DNA from: Bacteroidetes bacterium 2013_40CM_41_45
GTDB taxonomy: Bacteria > Bacteroidota > Bacteroidia > AKYH767-A > 2013-40CM-41-45
Direction: 5' to 3'
Length of the DNA stretch: 64,000 bases
Assembly: GCA_002215675.1 (NCBI GenBank)
Contig: NGFH01000004.1
Span: 124,001-188,000 of the forward strand
This document shows positions 15,645 to 50,819 of the stretch, piece after piece (positions within the stretch are counted from its first letter, which is position 1; the number at the start of each line of letters is the position of its first letter). A program made the position numbers and the translations under genes. The notes below the pieces were generated by a model. It saw nothing but the letters and a program-made list of their open reading frames with translations. It was not told where the DNA came from and did no database searches.

Positions 15645-18437
15645 TCACCTAAGTAAACTCTGCCCTTTTTCTAATGCCTTGCTGATTCCTTCAGAATTTT
15701 TTCCTCCTGCCGTTGCATAAAACGGTTGTCCGCCACCACCTCCCTGTATTTCTTTGGCAAGCTCGCGGATTATTTTAGAAGCATCGTAGTTTTTTTCCTT
15801 CACAAGGTTGTCGCTGATGATAAGCGAAAGGTGTGGCTTACCGCTTACTTCCGCTGCCAGCAAGCCAAAAAGATTGTTCACTTCTTTTTTCAGCTCGAAC
15901 GAAATTCCTTTAATGGCATCAGCATTACTGATATCAATTTTTTCGGCAAGGAAATTTATCCCGTTTATCTCTTTCACTTTTTTCAGCAAATCATTCTTAA
16001 TGGCATGAGCAATTTCTTTCGTCAGCTTTTCAGTTGCATCTTGTAACATAACTTCTGATTCCTTTGATATTTCCTGGCGACCCAACAATAGTTTAGCTTC
16101 TTCTTTTGCCGGGCTTGCTGAGGGATTTAATTTTTCCGACTGCTCCAGCAATTTTTTTAGCTCTTCCTTATGCAATTCAATTTTTTCTTTCATAGCATGT
16201 TCAGCAGCTTTGGCTTTTTCTTCCTGTTCTTTATAATATTTATCAACCAGCTCGCCTGTAATCGCTTCAACCCTTCTGACTCCTGCTGCAATGGAGCTTT
16301 CAGAAATGATTTTGAATTTACCTATCTGTTCGGTTGACTTAACATGCGTTCCCCCGCAGAGTTCCATAGAATATTTCGGGTCGAAGGTGATGACACGTAC
16401 AAACTCTCCATACTTCTCTCCGAATAAAGCTGTTGCGCCCATTTCCTGTGCCTGCTTAATGGGAACATTTCTTTTTTCATCGAGAGGAATATTTTCCTTA
16501 ATTTTTTCATTCACCATTATTTCAATTTTCTGAATCTCTTCATCCGTAACTTTTGCAAAATGAGAAAAATCAAAACGGGTAACATGCTCATTTACCAGTG
16601 AGCCCTTCTGATTAACATGACTACCCAACACCCGCTTTAACGCGGATTGCATAAGATGCGTAGCAGAGTGGTTGCTTGTGATTATTTTTCTCCTGTCTTT
16701 ATCAACTACTGCATGAAAAGTTGCGTTTAGATTTCTCGGCAGCTTATCAGCAAAATGAATGATAAGGGTATTTTCTTTTTGAGTATCGGTTATAAAATTT
16801 TTTTCATCACCTGATTCAATATATCCTGTGTCTCCAACCTGCCCGCCACTCTCTGCATAAAATGGAGTCGGATCTAATACTAGCTGAAACTGCTCCTTTC
16901 CTTTTATTTTTACTCTTCTGTAACGGAGAATTTCGCAGTCACATTCGAGCATATCATAGCCAACAAAATGAGAACCTCCCAAAAAGAAATCTGCCGGTTT
17001 ATCAGAAACAGGAATCCAGTCTTCCGTGTCAATTTCAGCCGCAGCACGCGAACGTTCTTTTTGTTCCGCAAGAAGTTCATTAAATCCATCTATATCTAAT
17101 TTAATATTTTTTTCCTTAGCCATTAATTCAATAAGGTCAATCGGGAATCCATAAGTATCATAAAGCTTAAAAATTGTATCCCCATTCATATATGATGTAT
17201 ACTTTTTAAAAAACTCTAGTACATTTTCACCCTCATTGGTTGAAACAGGTGTAACCCTTAGTTCAAAAAGTTTTATTCCATTCTCCAATGTTCTCAAAAA
17301 AGAAATTTCTTCTTCCTGAATCACTCTCATAATAAAATCCTGCTGTGTTTTTACCTCGGGGAAAACATCTTTGAATTGTTCCGAAAGAATCGGGACAAGC
17401 TTATGCAGGAACGGTTCGCTCAGTTTGAGAAAAGTAAAAGCATACCGTACTGCCCTGCGCAGAATTCTGCGGATTACGTAGCCGGCTTTATTGTTGGAAG
17501 GAAGCTGCCCGTCTGCAACTGCAAAAGTGATGGCGCGGATGTGGTCTGCCATAACGCGCATAGCGATGTCTTGCCTCACCCCCAGCCCCTCTCCCAAGGA
17601 GAGGGGAGTAACGCCTGAATATTTAATTCCGGTGCGGGCGGAAATAAATTGAATCAGCGGTTGAAAAACATCTGTATCATAGTTGGATGTTTTTCCCTGC
17701 AGCACCATGCAAAGTCGTTCAAAACCCATCCCGGTATCGACATGCCTTGAAGGAAGCGGCTCAAGCGTTCCATCAGCTTTGCTGTTGAATTCAATAAAGA
17801 CGTTATTCCACAGTTCAATAACCTGCGCATCACCCTTATTAACTAAAGTTTTTCCATCAATCTTTTTACGTTCTTCATCGCTGCGCAAGTCAATATGTAT
17901 TTCAGAGCACGGCCCGCACGGCCCGGTGTCACCCATCTCCCAAAAATTATCTTTCTTTTTCCCTTTCAGAATCCGGTCTTCAGCAATATGATTTTTCCAG
18001 CAGTCGAAACTTTCTTTATCAAAAGCCAGCTTTTGTTTTTCATCGCCTTCAAAAACGGTAACATACAATCTGTCTTCGGGAATTTTATAAACTTCAGTAA
18101 GTAATTCCCAGCTCCATTCAATAGCTTCTTTTTTAAAATAGTCGCCAAAGCTCCAGTTGCCAAGCATTTCAAACATGGTATGATGATACGTGTCGATGCC
18201 TACTTCTTCCAAATCATTATGCTTGCCCGAAACACGAAGACATTTCTGGGTGTCTGCAACACGCTTATATTTTGCAGAAACATTTCCAAGAAAAATATCC
18301 TTAAACTGGTTCATGCCAGCATTGGTGAACATGAGCGTAGGGTCGTTTTTTATAACCATAGGCGCAGAAGGAACAATTTCATGCCCTTTGGAAGCAAAAA
18401 AATCGAGGAATGTTTTGCGAATTTTTGTTGATATCAT
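15645..18437 (-). CDS. alaS: Alanine-tRNA ligase, with an in-frame palindromic insertion
   Basis: A class II synthetase that charges tRNA-Ala and clears mischarged Ser/Gly. The 930 residues contain the catalytic domain (about 1-240; FASKGHEIVPSAPMVIKNDP, GDTGPCGPCSEIH), the tRNA-recognition helices, the editing domain with NHSATHLMQSAL and the Cys-His site CGGTHVKSTEQIG, a coiled coil, and the C-Ala domain ending in GGGGGQPFYATAGG. It is longer than most bacterial AlaRS (about 875). Residues 275-288 (GVTPLSLGEGLGVR) are encoded by a GC-rich palindrome, inserted just before the conserved D-I-A-M-R-V-M-A-D-H-I-R-A element. The reading frame is kept, and everything else looks functional. Confidence 0.96.
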   Translation of the reverse strand: MISTKIRKTFLDFFASKGHEIVPSAPMVIKNDPTLMFTNAGMNQFKDIFLGNVSAKYKRVADTQKCLRVSGKHNDLEEVGIDTYHHTMFEMLGNWSFGDYFKKEAIEWSWELLTEVYKIPEDRLYVTVFEGDEKQKLAFDKESFDCWKNHIAEDRILKGKKKDNFWEMGDTGPCGPCSEIHIDLRSDEERKKIDGKTLVNKGDAQVIELWNNVFIEFNSKADGTLEPLPSRHVDTGMGFERLCMVLQGKTSNYDTDVFQPLIQFISARTGIKYSGVTPLSLGEGLGVRQDIAMRVMADHIRAITFAVADGQLPSNNKAGYVIRRILRRAVRYAFTFLKLSEPFLHKLVPILSEQFKDVFPEVKTQQDFIMRVIQEEEISFLRTLENGIKLFELRVTPVSTNEGENVLEFFKKYTSYMNGDTIFKLYDTYGFPIDLIELMAKEKNIKLDIDGFNELLAEQKERSRAAAEIDTEDWIPVSDKPADFFLGGSHFVGYDMLECDCEILRYRRVKIKGKEQFQLVLDPTPFYAESGGQVGDTGYIESGDEKNFITDTQKENTLIIHFADKLPRNLNATFHAVVDKDRRKIITSNHSATHLMQSALKRVLGSHVNQKGSLVNEHVTRFDFSHFAKVTDEEIQKIEIMVNEKIKENIPLDEKRNVPIKQAQEMGATALFGEKYGEFVRVITFDPKYSMELCGGTHVKSTEQIGKFKIISESSIAAGVRRVEAITGELVDKYYKEQEEKAKAAEHAMKEKIELHKEELKKLLEQSEKLNPSASPAKEEAKLLLGRQEISKESEVMLQDATEKLTKEIAHAIKNDLLKKVKEINGINFLAEKIDISNADAIKGISFELKKEVNNLFGLLAAEVSGKPHLSLIISDNLVKEKNYDASKIIRELAKEIQGGGGGQPFYATAGGKNSEGISKALEKGQSLLR
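17574..17608. repeat. Palindromic element inside alaS (copy 1)
   Basis: CCCCTCTCC (17586-17594) and GGAGAGGGG (17598-17606) form a perfect 9-bp stem with a 3-base loop, preceded by CCTCACCCCCAG. The same layout occurs at 49154-49188 inside another gene, in the same reading frame and orientation relative to the gene. The stem differs at one base pair (C-G here, T-A there), so pairing is kept. Confidence 0.85.
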
Positions 18438-18486
18438 TCTGTAATAAAAAGTTGCAGTCTGCCTGCTTTAGTTGTATGAAAAAATT

Positions 18487-48250: not shown

Positions 48251-50284
48251 TCAATTCACATTATTCAATGCATCAATTTGTTTCAATACATGCTTTGCCT
48301 GTACGTTGCTCGGCACTTTTTTCAGCAGAGATTCAAGAATTTGTTTTGCTCTCCTGAAATCTTTCCGGTAAATATATAAACCGGCCATGTTAAGCAGCGC
48401 CTGCTCATTGTCAGGGTCAAGTGCAAGTGCATCCCGGTAAAAACGTTCCGCCTTTCCTGCATTACCTTCTACGGACAAATAATAATAACCCAGGTTAGTA
48501 AGTGACGGAACATATTTGGGGTTTTCGTTATAGATGAATGAAAAGTTTTCTGCCGCTTCTTTTTCTTTACCCGTGCTCATTTGCAATGCGCCAAGCTTAT
48601 TTCTGAATTCTGAATTATATGGCTCAAGTATTACAGCTTTAGAGAAATAGATAAATGCATCGTTATTATCATTCAACGCAAGAAACGATTCGCCTATCCG
48701 GTATGCGGTCCAAGCAGCATCATTATTGTATTTAACTTTTTTAAATACTGCATCAGTGTTTCCATATTGGCGCACATAATCAACAACTTTTTTATAATCG
48801 CTTCTTAAAAACGCCCACCGCACCAGCAATGGAAAATTCTTTTTCACATTTTCTTCCGAGTCATCCGGCAGGTATTTTTTTGCCGAGTCAAGCGCCAGCG
48901 GATTGGGAGTAAACTTTTCATATAACGAAAGATAACCTTCTGCAACGGCTTCCTGAGGAGGCGAGGGATTATTAATACAAGCAATGCCGATAAACTCCCG
49001 GATGTCATTCACCGTTTCTTCCTTCATCGGCTTACGGATAAAATGGTCTGTGGTAATTACGTGGGGAATATCAGTGGTTTTATTTTGAGGCATGTGGCAG
49101 AAGACGCAATTATCCTGCACCTTATTCCTGACTTCTATCTTCTCGGTGCAAGACCTCATCCCTAGCCCTTCTCCTGGAGGAGAAGGGGACGCGGCATCAC
49201 CGTGACAATTTTTGCATACATTATTAAAGACATTTATGTCAGTCACCCTCACGCTCACATGCGGGTTGTGACAGGTGATGCAGGTGAATGATGCCTGCGA
49301 TGAAAACAAATTTCCGGGATTATTCTCATTGTGTTTTGCATTTGTGACGAGAAAGCACCGGCTCATTTTCAACCTCTCGGCATGAGACGCCATAATGTGC
49401 TCTTTATTTTCTCCTGAAAAGCGGGGCATAAACACATTCATCACTTCAGAAAGTTTCATGCCGGGATGGAAATCAAAAAATGATTTCCCCTGTTTCAGTA
49501 CGGCATTTCCCTGGATATGGCATCGCTGGCAAACATCAAGCTGCAAATCCACGGGAAGCTTGGCGGGATTCACGATGCTGTAATCAATTTCCTTAGTCAC
49601 GTCAACCACCTTGCCTGCCATTTTATCTTTCACATGCTGCTCTCCCGGCCCATGACAACGCTCGCAGTCAATACCATTTGGCACCTGCGTGTATTTATTT
49701 TCAGAGCCGTCAACCATTTGGGGATAAGCGTTGTGGCATGAAATGCATTCCAGCTCAATCTTTCTGCTGAAGCGGCTGTTATTTCCGTTTTCAAAACCGG
49801 GAGGTAAATCCCATTTTGCCCGCTGGGTGTAAAACGTAACGGGCGCCTGGTGCAGGTAACCATTTACATTCATGATGTGCGAATTGGTATGCTGCCCTGA
49901 ACCAACGATGTAATTAATTTGTTCTGTTCTTGAATGAACGGTGTCTTTTCCATCTAAGCGGTATTCACGAACAAAAAGAGAATCATTCCTGAAGTAAGGG
50001 TGATAATAAAAATCCTTGTACCGGTCATAAATAATTTCCTTGTTCCCGAAACGTGCCGAACTTTTTTCCTGAGATGCTTTATCAAAAGACAGCCCCATGC
50101 CTGTATGCATAAATGTTTCAAACTTATCCTGGTGGCATTGCCGGCACATCTGCATGCCCACATACTTCACCGTGTCATTCAGCGAGGCATATGAGGGAGA
50201 AGAAATATTTTTTTTGTTGTTGCAGTTGGTAATAGCGGCAGCAATAAAGATGAGAATAGCTGCTGAAAAAAATATTCTCTTCAA
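48251..50284 (-). CDS. Seven-haem c-type cytochrome lipoprotein with TPR tail
   Basis: An exported redox protein of 678 residues, read from a TTG at 50282-50284 just after the GNAT stop. The start LKRIFFSAAILIFIAAAITN and a following Cys form a lipoprotein signal. Seven CxxCH haem sites follow: CRQCH, CISCH, CERCH, CQRCH, CITCH, CKNCH and CVFCH. Extra His residues (HVITTDHF) can serve as distal ligands. The C-terminal third (about 480-678) has TPR repeats (YVPSLTNLGYYYLSVEGNAG, ALDPDNEQALLNMAGLYIY). Residues 366-378 (SPSPPGEGLGMRS), between the sixth and seventh haem, come from a palindromic element. Electron partner and substrate are unknown; relatives of this layout are uncharacterised. Confidence 0.82.
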   Translation of the reverse strand: MKRIFFSAAILIFIAAAITNCNNKKNISSPSYASLNDTVKYVGMQMCRQCHQDKFETFMHTGMGLSFDKASQEKSSARFGNKEIIYDRYKDFYYHPYFRNDSLFVREYRLDGKDTVHSRTEQINYIVGSGQHTNSHIMNVNGYLHQAPVTFYTQRAKWDLPPGFENGNNSRFSRKIELECISCHNAYPQMVDGSENKYTQVPNGIDCERCHGPGEQHVKDKMAGKVVDVTKEIDYSIVNPAKLPVDLQLDVCQRCHIQGNAVLKQGKSFFDFHPGMKLSEVMNVFMPRFSGENKEHIMASHAERLKMSRCFLVTNAKHNENNPGNLFSSQASFTCITCHNPHVSVRVTDINVFNNVCKNCHGDAASPSPPGEGLGMRSCTEKIEVRNKVQDNCVFCHMPQNKTTDIPHVITTDHFIRKPMKEETVNDIREFIGIACINNPSPPQEAVAEGYLSLYEKFTPNPLALDSAKKYLPDDSEENVKKNFPLLVRWAFLRSDYKKVVDYVRQYGNTDAVFKKVKYNNDAAWTAYRIGESFLALNDNNDAFIYFSKAVILEPYNSEFRNKLGALQMSTGKEKEAAENFSFIYNENPKYVPSLTNLGYYYLSVEGNAGKAERFYRDALALDPDNEQALLNMAGLYIYRKDFRRAKQILESLLKKVPSNVQAKHVLKQIDALNNVN
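49154..49188. repeat. Palindromic element inside the cytochrome gene (copy 2)
   Basis: CCCTTCTCC (49166-49174) pairs perfectly with GGAGAAGGG (49179-49187) around a 4-base loop, preceded by CCTCATCCCTAG. It is the counterpart of 17574-17608, inserted in the same frame and giving the same GEGLG-x-R peptide. One stem pair has changed from C-G to T-A on both sides. Confidence 0.85.
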
Positions 50285-50294
50285 AGTGAAAAAA

Positions 50295-50819
50295 TTATTT
50301 GCGGATAAACTGCAGGAAATATTCGTCCACGAACTGGCCTTTGTTGTGATTCCAGTCCTTGCGCGTGCCTGTAGTTTCAAAATTCAGTTTGCGGAATAAT
50401 GAAAGGCTATCCTGGTTGTCGGCAATCACAGAGCAATACACCTGGTGCAAGTCAAGAGTCGTAAAGCAATATTCAATTACAATTTCAACTGCCTCTGCAG
50501 CATATCCTTTTCTTCTTTCGCCCTCATCGCCAATCAGGATGCCGATGCCAGCTCTTTTATTTTTCGGGTCAAAGTCAAACAGGTCAATGCAGCCGATGCT
50601 TTTTGTACTTCCGGACAAATCAATCATCAGCCGGAGTTCTTTCGAAGAATAGATGTCGTGATGAGAAACGGTGAGATACTGTTCAATAACAAACCGTGAA
50701 AACGGAGCAAGTGTTCCACTCACAGGCCATACTTCAGGATTATTTTCCCATTTGTAAAGAAGCTCAAGGTCTTTAGGCTCAAGCGCACGCAGTTGTAATT
50801 TTTTTCCCTGAAGAAGCAT
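50295..50819 (-). CDS. GNAT-family N-acetyltransferase
   Basis: A 174-residue acetyltransferase of the RimJ/RimL-like GNAT group: KKLQLRALEPKDLELLYKWE at the start, the acetyl-CoA loop GIGILIGDEGERRKGYAAEA, and VYCSVIADNQDSLSLFRKLN near the end. The substrate may be a protein N-terminus, an amine or spermidine-like compound; the family does not decide. Cytoplasmic. It starts the minus-strand run that includes the cytochrome, with 10 bp between. A minus-7 box lies 26 bases upstream. Confidence 0.88.
   Translation of the reverse strand: MLLQGKKLQLRALEPKDLELLYKWENNPEVWPVSGTLAPFSRFVIEQYLTVSHHDIYSSKELRLMIDLSGSTKSIGCIDLFDFDPKNKRAGIGILIGDEGERRKGYAAEAVEIVIEYCFTTLDLHQVYCSVIADNQDSLSLFRKLNFETTGTRKDWNHNKGQFVDEYFLQFIRK

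Follow-up and report, generated by a model that had tools for sequence, protein, structure and literature searches.

Triplex-hairpin palindromes in Bacteroidota genes as the probable ends of a homing-like element with a DUF559 nuclease

The closest described relatives of the repeat considered here are the intrastrand triplex motifs (TM/PIT) of Holder et al. 2015 (PMC4666352). They consist of a tag and a hairpin, and the tag is able to lie on the stem as a third strand. There are two types, with a second loop of TTA or CCG on the G-rich strand, and they are often paired in inverted orientation. They reach high copy in cyanobacteria and enterobacteria. E. coli has 23 of them in 4.64 Mb, and its motif has been shown to form a triplex in vitro (CD/NMR). 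In E. coli they are always intergenic and have no mobile-element association, and endonucleases are never mentioned (PMC4666352). The palindrome described below is this known motif. Its tag mirrors its stem with the triplets preserved, and it too has two types and forms inverted pairs. The present copies differ from the E. coli ones in that they lie in genes and bracket genes of the DUF559 family.

Several other systems share part of this picture. The REP/REPIN sequences and their RAYT (TnpA_REP) genes, together called 'REPtrons', are also short imperfect tagged hairpins, solo and in inverted pairs, around a nuclease gene. They too have family-specific ends and a conserved stem irregularity. 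However, the nuclease here is a PD-(D/E)XK enzyme (DUF559) and not HUH/Y1, and copies of it are found inside genes. The GTAG/CGTC tag of REP/RAYT is absent, the consensus tag here being CCTCAYCC, and this genome has no cognate HUH/Y1 transposase flanked by the repeat. Rickettsia palindromic elements (RPE) are likewise inserted in frame in many protein genes, but they are units of ~150 bp that encode a conserved peptide (PMC10969869). The copies here are ~36 bp, use five frames, encode no conserved peptide of that kind and are part of a nuclease element. REPs within genes are also known (PMC3733652), so RPEs and intragenic REPs both indicate that palindromes can enter genes in frame. The EDxHD homing endonucleases, such as I-Bth0305I (PDB 3R3P), resemble the nuclease in fold, by sequence and by structure, and in their recurrent sites in conserved genes. 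As in homing, we find a homing-family nuclease and a recurrent site with empty alleles in relatives. Unlike I-Bth0305I, the nuclease here has no intron or intein, is fused in frame and has triplex-hairpin ends on both flanks. The ShiLan domain is a homing-like insertion in a phage gene that leaves the host frame open without a splicing element, but it is an HNH nuclease in a different frame, in phage, and lacks palindromic ends (PMC11855218).

The DNA analysed, called the window below, is a stretch of 64,000 nucleotides from Bacteroidetes bacterium 2013_40CM_41_45. It is C6:124001-188000 of a genome (G000) of 3.38 Mb in 11 contigs. Two copies of the palindrome lie in it, both on the plus strand and both within minus-strand genes. 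The first (49154..49189) is a solo end in a gene for a multihaem cytochrome c with TPR repeats (48251..50380), and consists of tag, second loop, hairpin and two flanking bases. Over 49154-49190 it reads CCTCATCC-CTAG-CCCTTCTCC-TGGA-GGAGAAGGG-GAC. The tag CCTCATCC (49154..49161) mirrors the 5' stem arm CCCTTCTCC (49166..49174) and is a possible third strand of an intrastrand triplex. The 3' stem arm is GGAGAAGGG (49179..49187), and an outer pair, T at 49163 with A at 49189, lies across a 2x1 internal loop. The second copy (17574..17608) is in a loop of the alaS open frame (15648..18467). Its stem is 17586-17594 / 17598-17606, its outer pair is C 17583 / G 17608, and over 17574-17609 it reads CCTCACCCC-CAG-CCCCTCTCC-CAA-GGAGAGGGG-AGT. 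In each copy the tag CCTCAYCC is followed by a short second loop and then by a 9-bp hairpin whose own loop is 3-4 nt long, and there is a flanking purine pair. The two copies are real and far above chance: the first part of the motif, CTCATCCCTAGCCCTTCTCC, is found at <=3 mismatches only in these two places in the window, and 0 are expected from 100 shuffles.

The host-gene frame on the minus strand is open through both copies (...DAASPSPPGEGLGMRSC... in the cytochrome and ...SGVTPLSLGEGLGVRQD... in alaS), and homologues lack both inserts. In the cytochrome the extra residues fall between the haem motif CKNCHG and CTEK, in a loop that is variable. Orthologues of this cytochrome are present in 48 of the 61 genomes searched, this one counted, and the loop was aligned in 26 others. 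The alaS insert, SGVTPLSLGEGLGVRQ, stands where relatives have about six residues, a net gain of 10 aa, and the protein with its insert scores 884.8 bits against a cut-off of 457 (NCBIfam TIGR00344). The genus represented by G005 (L300) has its own pair of palindrome-like repeats (PSQTLPEGERSKTAGPSLTLPEGKGTQTA) in this cytochrome loop, apparently an independent insertion.

A sequence-only reading of the window had aligned these two copies over about 35 bases, and this alignment is borne out (49154-49189 against 17574-17608). It also described a single two-sided stem change. That change is there, T-A at 49169/49184 against C-G at 17589/17603, but two further changes were overlooked. The outer pair differs on both sides as well (49163 T / 49189 A against 17583 C / 17608 G), and a tag base varies with the stem (49159 T against 17579 C). 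The two copies were said to share a frame, on the strength of a common peptide core. They do so on the tag side of the loop only, since the loop is 4 nt in the cytochrome and 3 nt in alaS and the frames part beyond it.

The same reading held that the stem is under selection, and we agree, because stem pair 4 and the outer pair both covary across the family. Within this genome's copies pair 4 is C-G, T-A or T-G and is never a mismatch. Their stem pairs were counted by script, MAFFT having misaligned the variable loops. Standard pairs fill 115 of 126 pairing cells, compared to a shuffled mean of 105.8 and maximum of 112, and 115 was never reached in 2000 shuffles. The tag CCTCAYCC is the mirror of the stem CCYTCTCC. 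A tag T goes with a stem T in 9/9 cases and a tag C with a stem T in 3/26 (p=3e-6). This three-way coupling of tag and stem is the pattern expected of an intrastrand triplex. When all loci are counted, the outer pair reads C-G in 77, T-A in 28 and is mismatched in 7, again across the 2x1 internal loop (p=7e-19; the copies are related by descent, so this p value and the previous one overstate independence). Neighbouring offsets beside the outer pair show no significant covariation across all loci.

The ends come in two types, CTAA..AA and CCRR..AG. A third type, TAAAT-stem-ACTT, is found over different stems and also in a cyanobacterium. It retains a non-pairing position, with ACTT in 28 of 33 and the fully pairing ATTT in one. 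Read on the G-rich strand, this position in L077, L080, L087, L110, L120, L317 and others is a G-T mismatch. T-G mismatches are the sites at which Vsr endonucleases act, so the nuclease described below may read the retained mismatch. Inverted palindrome pairs ~12 bp apart are seen in G019, where many C-type and T-type units are arranged in this REPIN-like way (e.g. C18:12595-12669).

Genome-wide, 35 hairpins match the arm pattern at <=3 mismatches, against 0 for the reversed control. Tag-bearing matches number 50, a few of them spurious, so the genome holds ~50 copies. Those with an open frame through the element are in alaS, leuS, acs, truB, dusB, tsaD, aroC, aroA, miaB, folC and nnrD, and in genes for an E1 dehydrogenase, an FAD monooxygenase, a phosphoesterase, an amidohydrolase and others. 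It had been supposed that a single frame is used that avoids stop codons. This does not survive the count. The 23 in-gene copies are distributed over five of the six frames (+0: 3, +1: 9, +2: 3, -0: 3, -1: 5, -2: 0), and the supposed frame accounts for 5 of the 23. The frame common to the two window copies is thus a coincidence. The frames in use track whichever lack stops in each variant, and purifying selection on the host gene alone would yield such a pattern. Two genes of this genome hold several copies. The single open frame of folC (C6:376484-377890, L055) contains two palindromes with about 70 bp between them, and in leuS (L071/L069, C7:277719-281192) one open frame of 1158 aa contains four palindromes and a DUF559 insert.

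The further suggestion that the element is adapted to coding sequence fails for the frame of the palindrome, but it holds for a larger element. In the full element a DUF559 nuclease frame runs without a stop across both ends and is joined to that of the host protein. All four DUF559 genes of this genome lie between inverted ends or variants of them: one in leuS, one in acs and two intergenic. The intergenic copy on C6 has degenerate ends, with an inverted-repeat score of 17 that is no better than chance. Over 46 loci from this genome and its relatives, the upstream flank matches the inverted downstream flank above the shuffled 99% level in 34. Many of these loci have near-perfect inverted repeats of family-specific sequence, and some, this genome's C6 copy among them, have no clear inverted ends. 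In 79 of 129 domains examined across the Bacteroidota, DUF559 lies within a housekeeping gene, in frame, with more than 60 host residues on both sides; this fraction is not a prevalence, since the set was picked largely by likeness to in-gene copies, its 80 genome loci being those that best matched an in-gene query.

The nuclease matches DUF559 (PF04480) at 117.6 bits against a curated Pfam cut-off of 20.6. In sequence it also matches PDB 3hrl (E=3e-31) and I-Bth0305I, a homing endonuclease (3r3p, E=6e-6). The AlphaFold model of DUF559 alone is good (mean pLDDT 89.3). The nearest folds are 3hrl and 3r3p (for the latter, Foldseek E=8e-4, prob 1.00), and PvuRTs1I and E. coli Vsr are weaker matches. 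A model of LeuS with its DUF559 has low confidence (mean pLDDT 64.6), the insert linkers being among the least certain parts, and our conclusions do not use it. The in-gene nucleases are mostly one clade (12 of 14 in-gene rows, plus one free member). The catalytic residues are conserved in the in-gene copies. We predict that the nuclease is active. A phage origin was considered and rejected, IMG/VR having given just 23 relatives that are mostly distant.

The solo palindromes and the nuclease go together across genomes as well. DUF559 is present in 15 of 19 genomes with palindromes and in 12 of 42 without (p=3e-4, 61 genomes). Every genome with at least 5 matches to the palindrome pattern carries it. 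Four genomes (G014, G023, G047, G049) have solo palindromes and no detected DUF559. Extra copies within the 5 kb flanks match the resident element's own ends at 9 of 39 loci, versus 4 of 234 mismatched comparisons. One could instead suppose that these are REP-like repeats moved by a Y1 (RAYT/TnpA_REP) transposase and that the association with DUF559 is incidental. The build is indeed REP-like, with a tag, an imperfect hairpin with a conserved irregularity and paired inverted units. Intragenic REPs have the precedent cited above, and the genome has one Y1_Tnp match. However, that gene has an internal stop within the match, and its flanks have neither the tag nor the stem arm of this palindrome family, for which reason RAYT was rejected as the mobiliser. 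The consensus has no GTAG/CGTC tag, all four DUF559 genes are bracketed by ends and the association at the level of genomes is with DUF559. We consider a Y1 mobiliser very unlikely.

If the palindromes are the ends of a nuclease element, its behavior at its insertion sites should be considered. The nuclease hosts include LeuS, IleS, ValS, MetG, MetH, RecG, IcmF, methylmalonyl-CoA mutase, Acs, guanylate kinase, MazG and others. With their inserts the main ones score above the equivalog cut-offs: LeuS 914 vs 548, IleS 962-989 vs 621, MetH 2091 vs 1497, RecG 893 vs 711 and IcmF 1814 vs 1500. The same sites are used repeatedly. Of 29 LeuS insertions, 27 are at QRNWIGRSEGA..F | ..VFTTRPDTIFG (residues ~283|289), and 9 RecG cases are at DEQHRFGV.QR.KLW | PPHILVMTATPIPRT. 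Recurrent sites are also found in MetH, IleS, ValS, MetG, IcmF and Acs, and they span families and orders. The nucleases group by site, with 39 label changes compared to a shuffled mean of 64.9, and 39 was never reached in 200 shuffles. The LeuS nucleases are not a single clade (12 label changes), several lineages being found on the common site. The site may therefore partly reflect a tolerant loop and not target recognition. Two MAGs outside the Bacteroidota, one of Candidatus Paceibacterota (L211) and one of Anaerolineales (L219), have DUF559 within long open frames, that of L211 being in LeuS at the common site. Either horizontal transfer or a binning error would account for them.

Occupied and empty sites can be compared directly. 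The MetH insert is present in G016 and absent from its congener G023, with DNA 98% identical in the flanks; this is the only near-identical occupied/empty pair. About 24 nt of the loop are replaced in MetH and ~5 residues in LeuS. The MetH pair shows no target-site duplication, which is the mark of DDE-type IS and MITE elements, and protein comparison shows loop replacement in alaS and LeuS. Since the insertions replace loop residues, their exact boundaries are blurred. A precise simple insertion with target duplication was rejected on the same comparisons in alaS, LeuS and MetH.

It could be argued that these fusions are domesticated. DUF559 would have been recruited once or a few times in LeuS, MetH, RecG and the like and then inherited vertically, with the palindromes as remnants that code for linkers. 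Kept catalytic residues in the in-gene copies fit this, and the RecG and Winogradskyella MetH clusters are compatible with vertical descent. Some site clusters, such as RecG in Flavobacteriaceae, may well be vertical. However, the leuS distribution is sporadic: among the leuS genes aligned, only those of the window genome, G046 and G054 have the common site occupied, and it is empty in every aligned genome of the same family. The G016/G023 pair is also hard to reconcile with domestication, and the same nuclease clade is found in at least ten unrelated hosts. Domestication as a general account is quite improbable.

One can also imagine an unrecognised intron, intein or translational-bypass element, so that the insert is removed before a working enzyme forms. 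The host proteins are essential enzymes that carry about 150 additional residues, and the hairpin ends, being inverted, would be able to pair. But removal would not require an open frame, and every mid-gene copy is open and in frame throughout (0 antisense or out-of-frame open spans in 129 DUF559 loci). Only host and DUF559 models were matched by NCBIfam in 17 representative hosts, so no splicing domain was seen in them. Rfam gave no match in the window or in three other loci, and on this search a known Rfam RNA was rejected. The sites are in variable loops, consistent with tolerance of the insert. We find removal of the insert the least credible of the explanations weighed here.

The association extends beyond the Bacteroidota. 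Hairpin ends flank the DUF559 genes of Pseudanabaena, Picosynechococcus and Deinococcus plasmids, and a Neisseria copy has a similar motif upstream. The gene family represented structurally by PDB 3hrl (ngo0050) has a TM-like stretch upstream in Neisseria gonorrhoeae (L315). The ycjD gene of E. coli K-12 (L318 8408-8761), also a DUF559 gene, is followed at a distance of about 165 bp by a TM repeat, and a degenerate TM repeat overlaps its 3' end. By our own estimate from 23 repeats in 4.64 Mb, the chance of a TM repeat that near a given E. coli gene is roughly 0.4%. A long palindrome adjoins ycjD upstream.

These E. coli repeats also raise another possibility. The palindromes could be passive hotspots of non-B-DNA (triplex) that are spread by errors of replication or repair, with the nuclease a domesticated repair enzyme that binds them by chance. 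The repeat is a known intrastrand triplex motif that has been proposed to cause genomic instability (PMC4666352). E. coli genomes have a median of 18 places that match the TM query, and in K-12 ycjD is beside one. Passive hotspots do not explain why nuclease genes are bracketed by ends specific to their own family, why nucleases are fused in frame at identical codons in distant genera, or why nucleases group by site. We regard this possibility as unlikely.

We argue instead that the palindrome is probably the terminus of a small selfish homing-like element, in which a PD-(D/E)XK nuclease lies between triplex-hairpin ends, and that the short palindromes are its solo derivatives. The full form is an end hairpin, an open frame for a DUF559 nuclease (PD-(D/E)XK, Vsr/EDxHD-like) and then the end hairpin again, inverted. 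Its full copies lie in surface loops of housekeeping proteins and are read in frame. The host enzyme would thus include the nuclease as one of its domains, with the ends translated into linkers, for example LTPNPSPKERG and PLSFGEGxGGEA. The most likely targets of the nuclease are the folded ends, each a hairpin with an internal loop and a triplex-forming tag, or a conserved host target, or both. The nuclease would then cut or nick, and repair would copy the element in, as in homing. The architecture, the fusion in frame, the recurrent sites, the presence and absence of inserts and the covariation of the structure are observations, whereas nuclease activity, recognition of the ends and this route of movement are predictions. 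The short copies would be ends, solo or in pairs, that remain after incomplete copying or deletion, or ends moved to new sites by the same nuclease. Within genes, copies would be retained only if their length, frame and position in a loop are compatible with a working protein.

Our literature search, mostly of openly available journal papers, found no link between DUF559 and these repeats, and the titles and abstracts of the literature that mentions DUF559 do not tie the two together. The link, the in-frame nuclease fusions and the recurrent sites appear to be new. Triplex-forming repeats are found in hundreds of bacterial genomes with their cause unexplained, and DUF559 is widespread with no assigned function. 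The link between them gives both a testable role. A broader claim, on which we are evenly balanced, is that this is a new class of mobile element. Its Vsr-like PD-(D/E)XK nuclease would recognise triplex-hairpin ends and home in frame into conserved loops of essential enzymes without splicing. It would also be the long-missing mobiliser of the widespread TM/PIT repeats, in Bacteroidota as well as in cyanobacteria and E. coli (ycjD). If true, essential genes would be invaded without splicing by selfish nucleases that persist as in-frame domains of tRNA synthetases, MetH and RecG, and the recurring Pro/Gly-rich inserts in Bacteroidota proteins would be explained.
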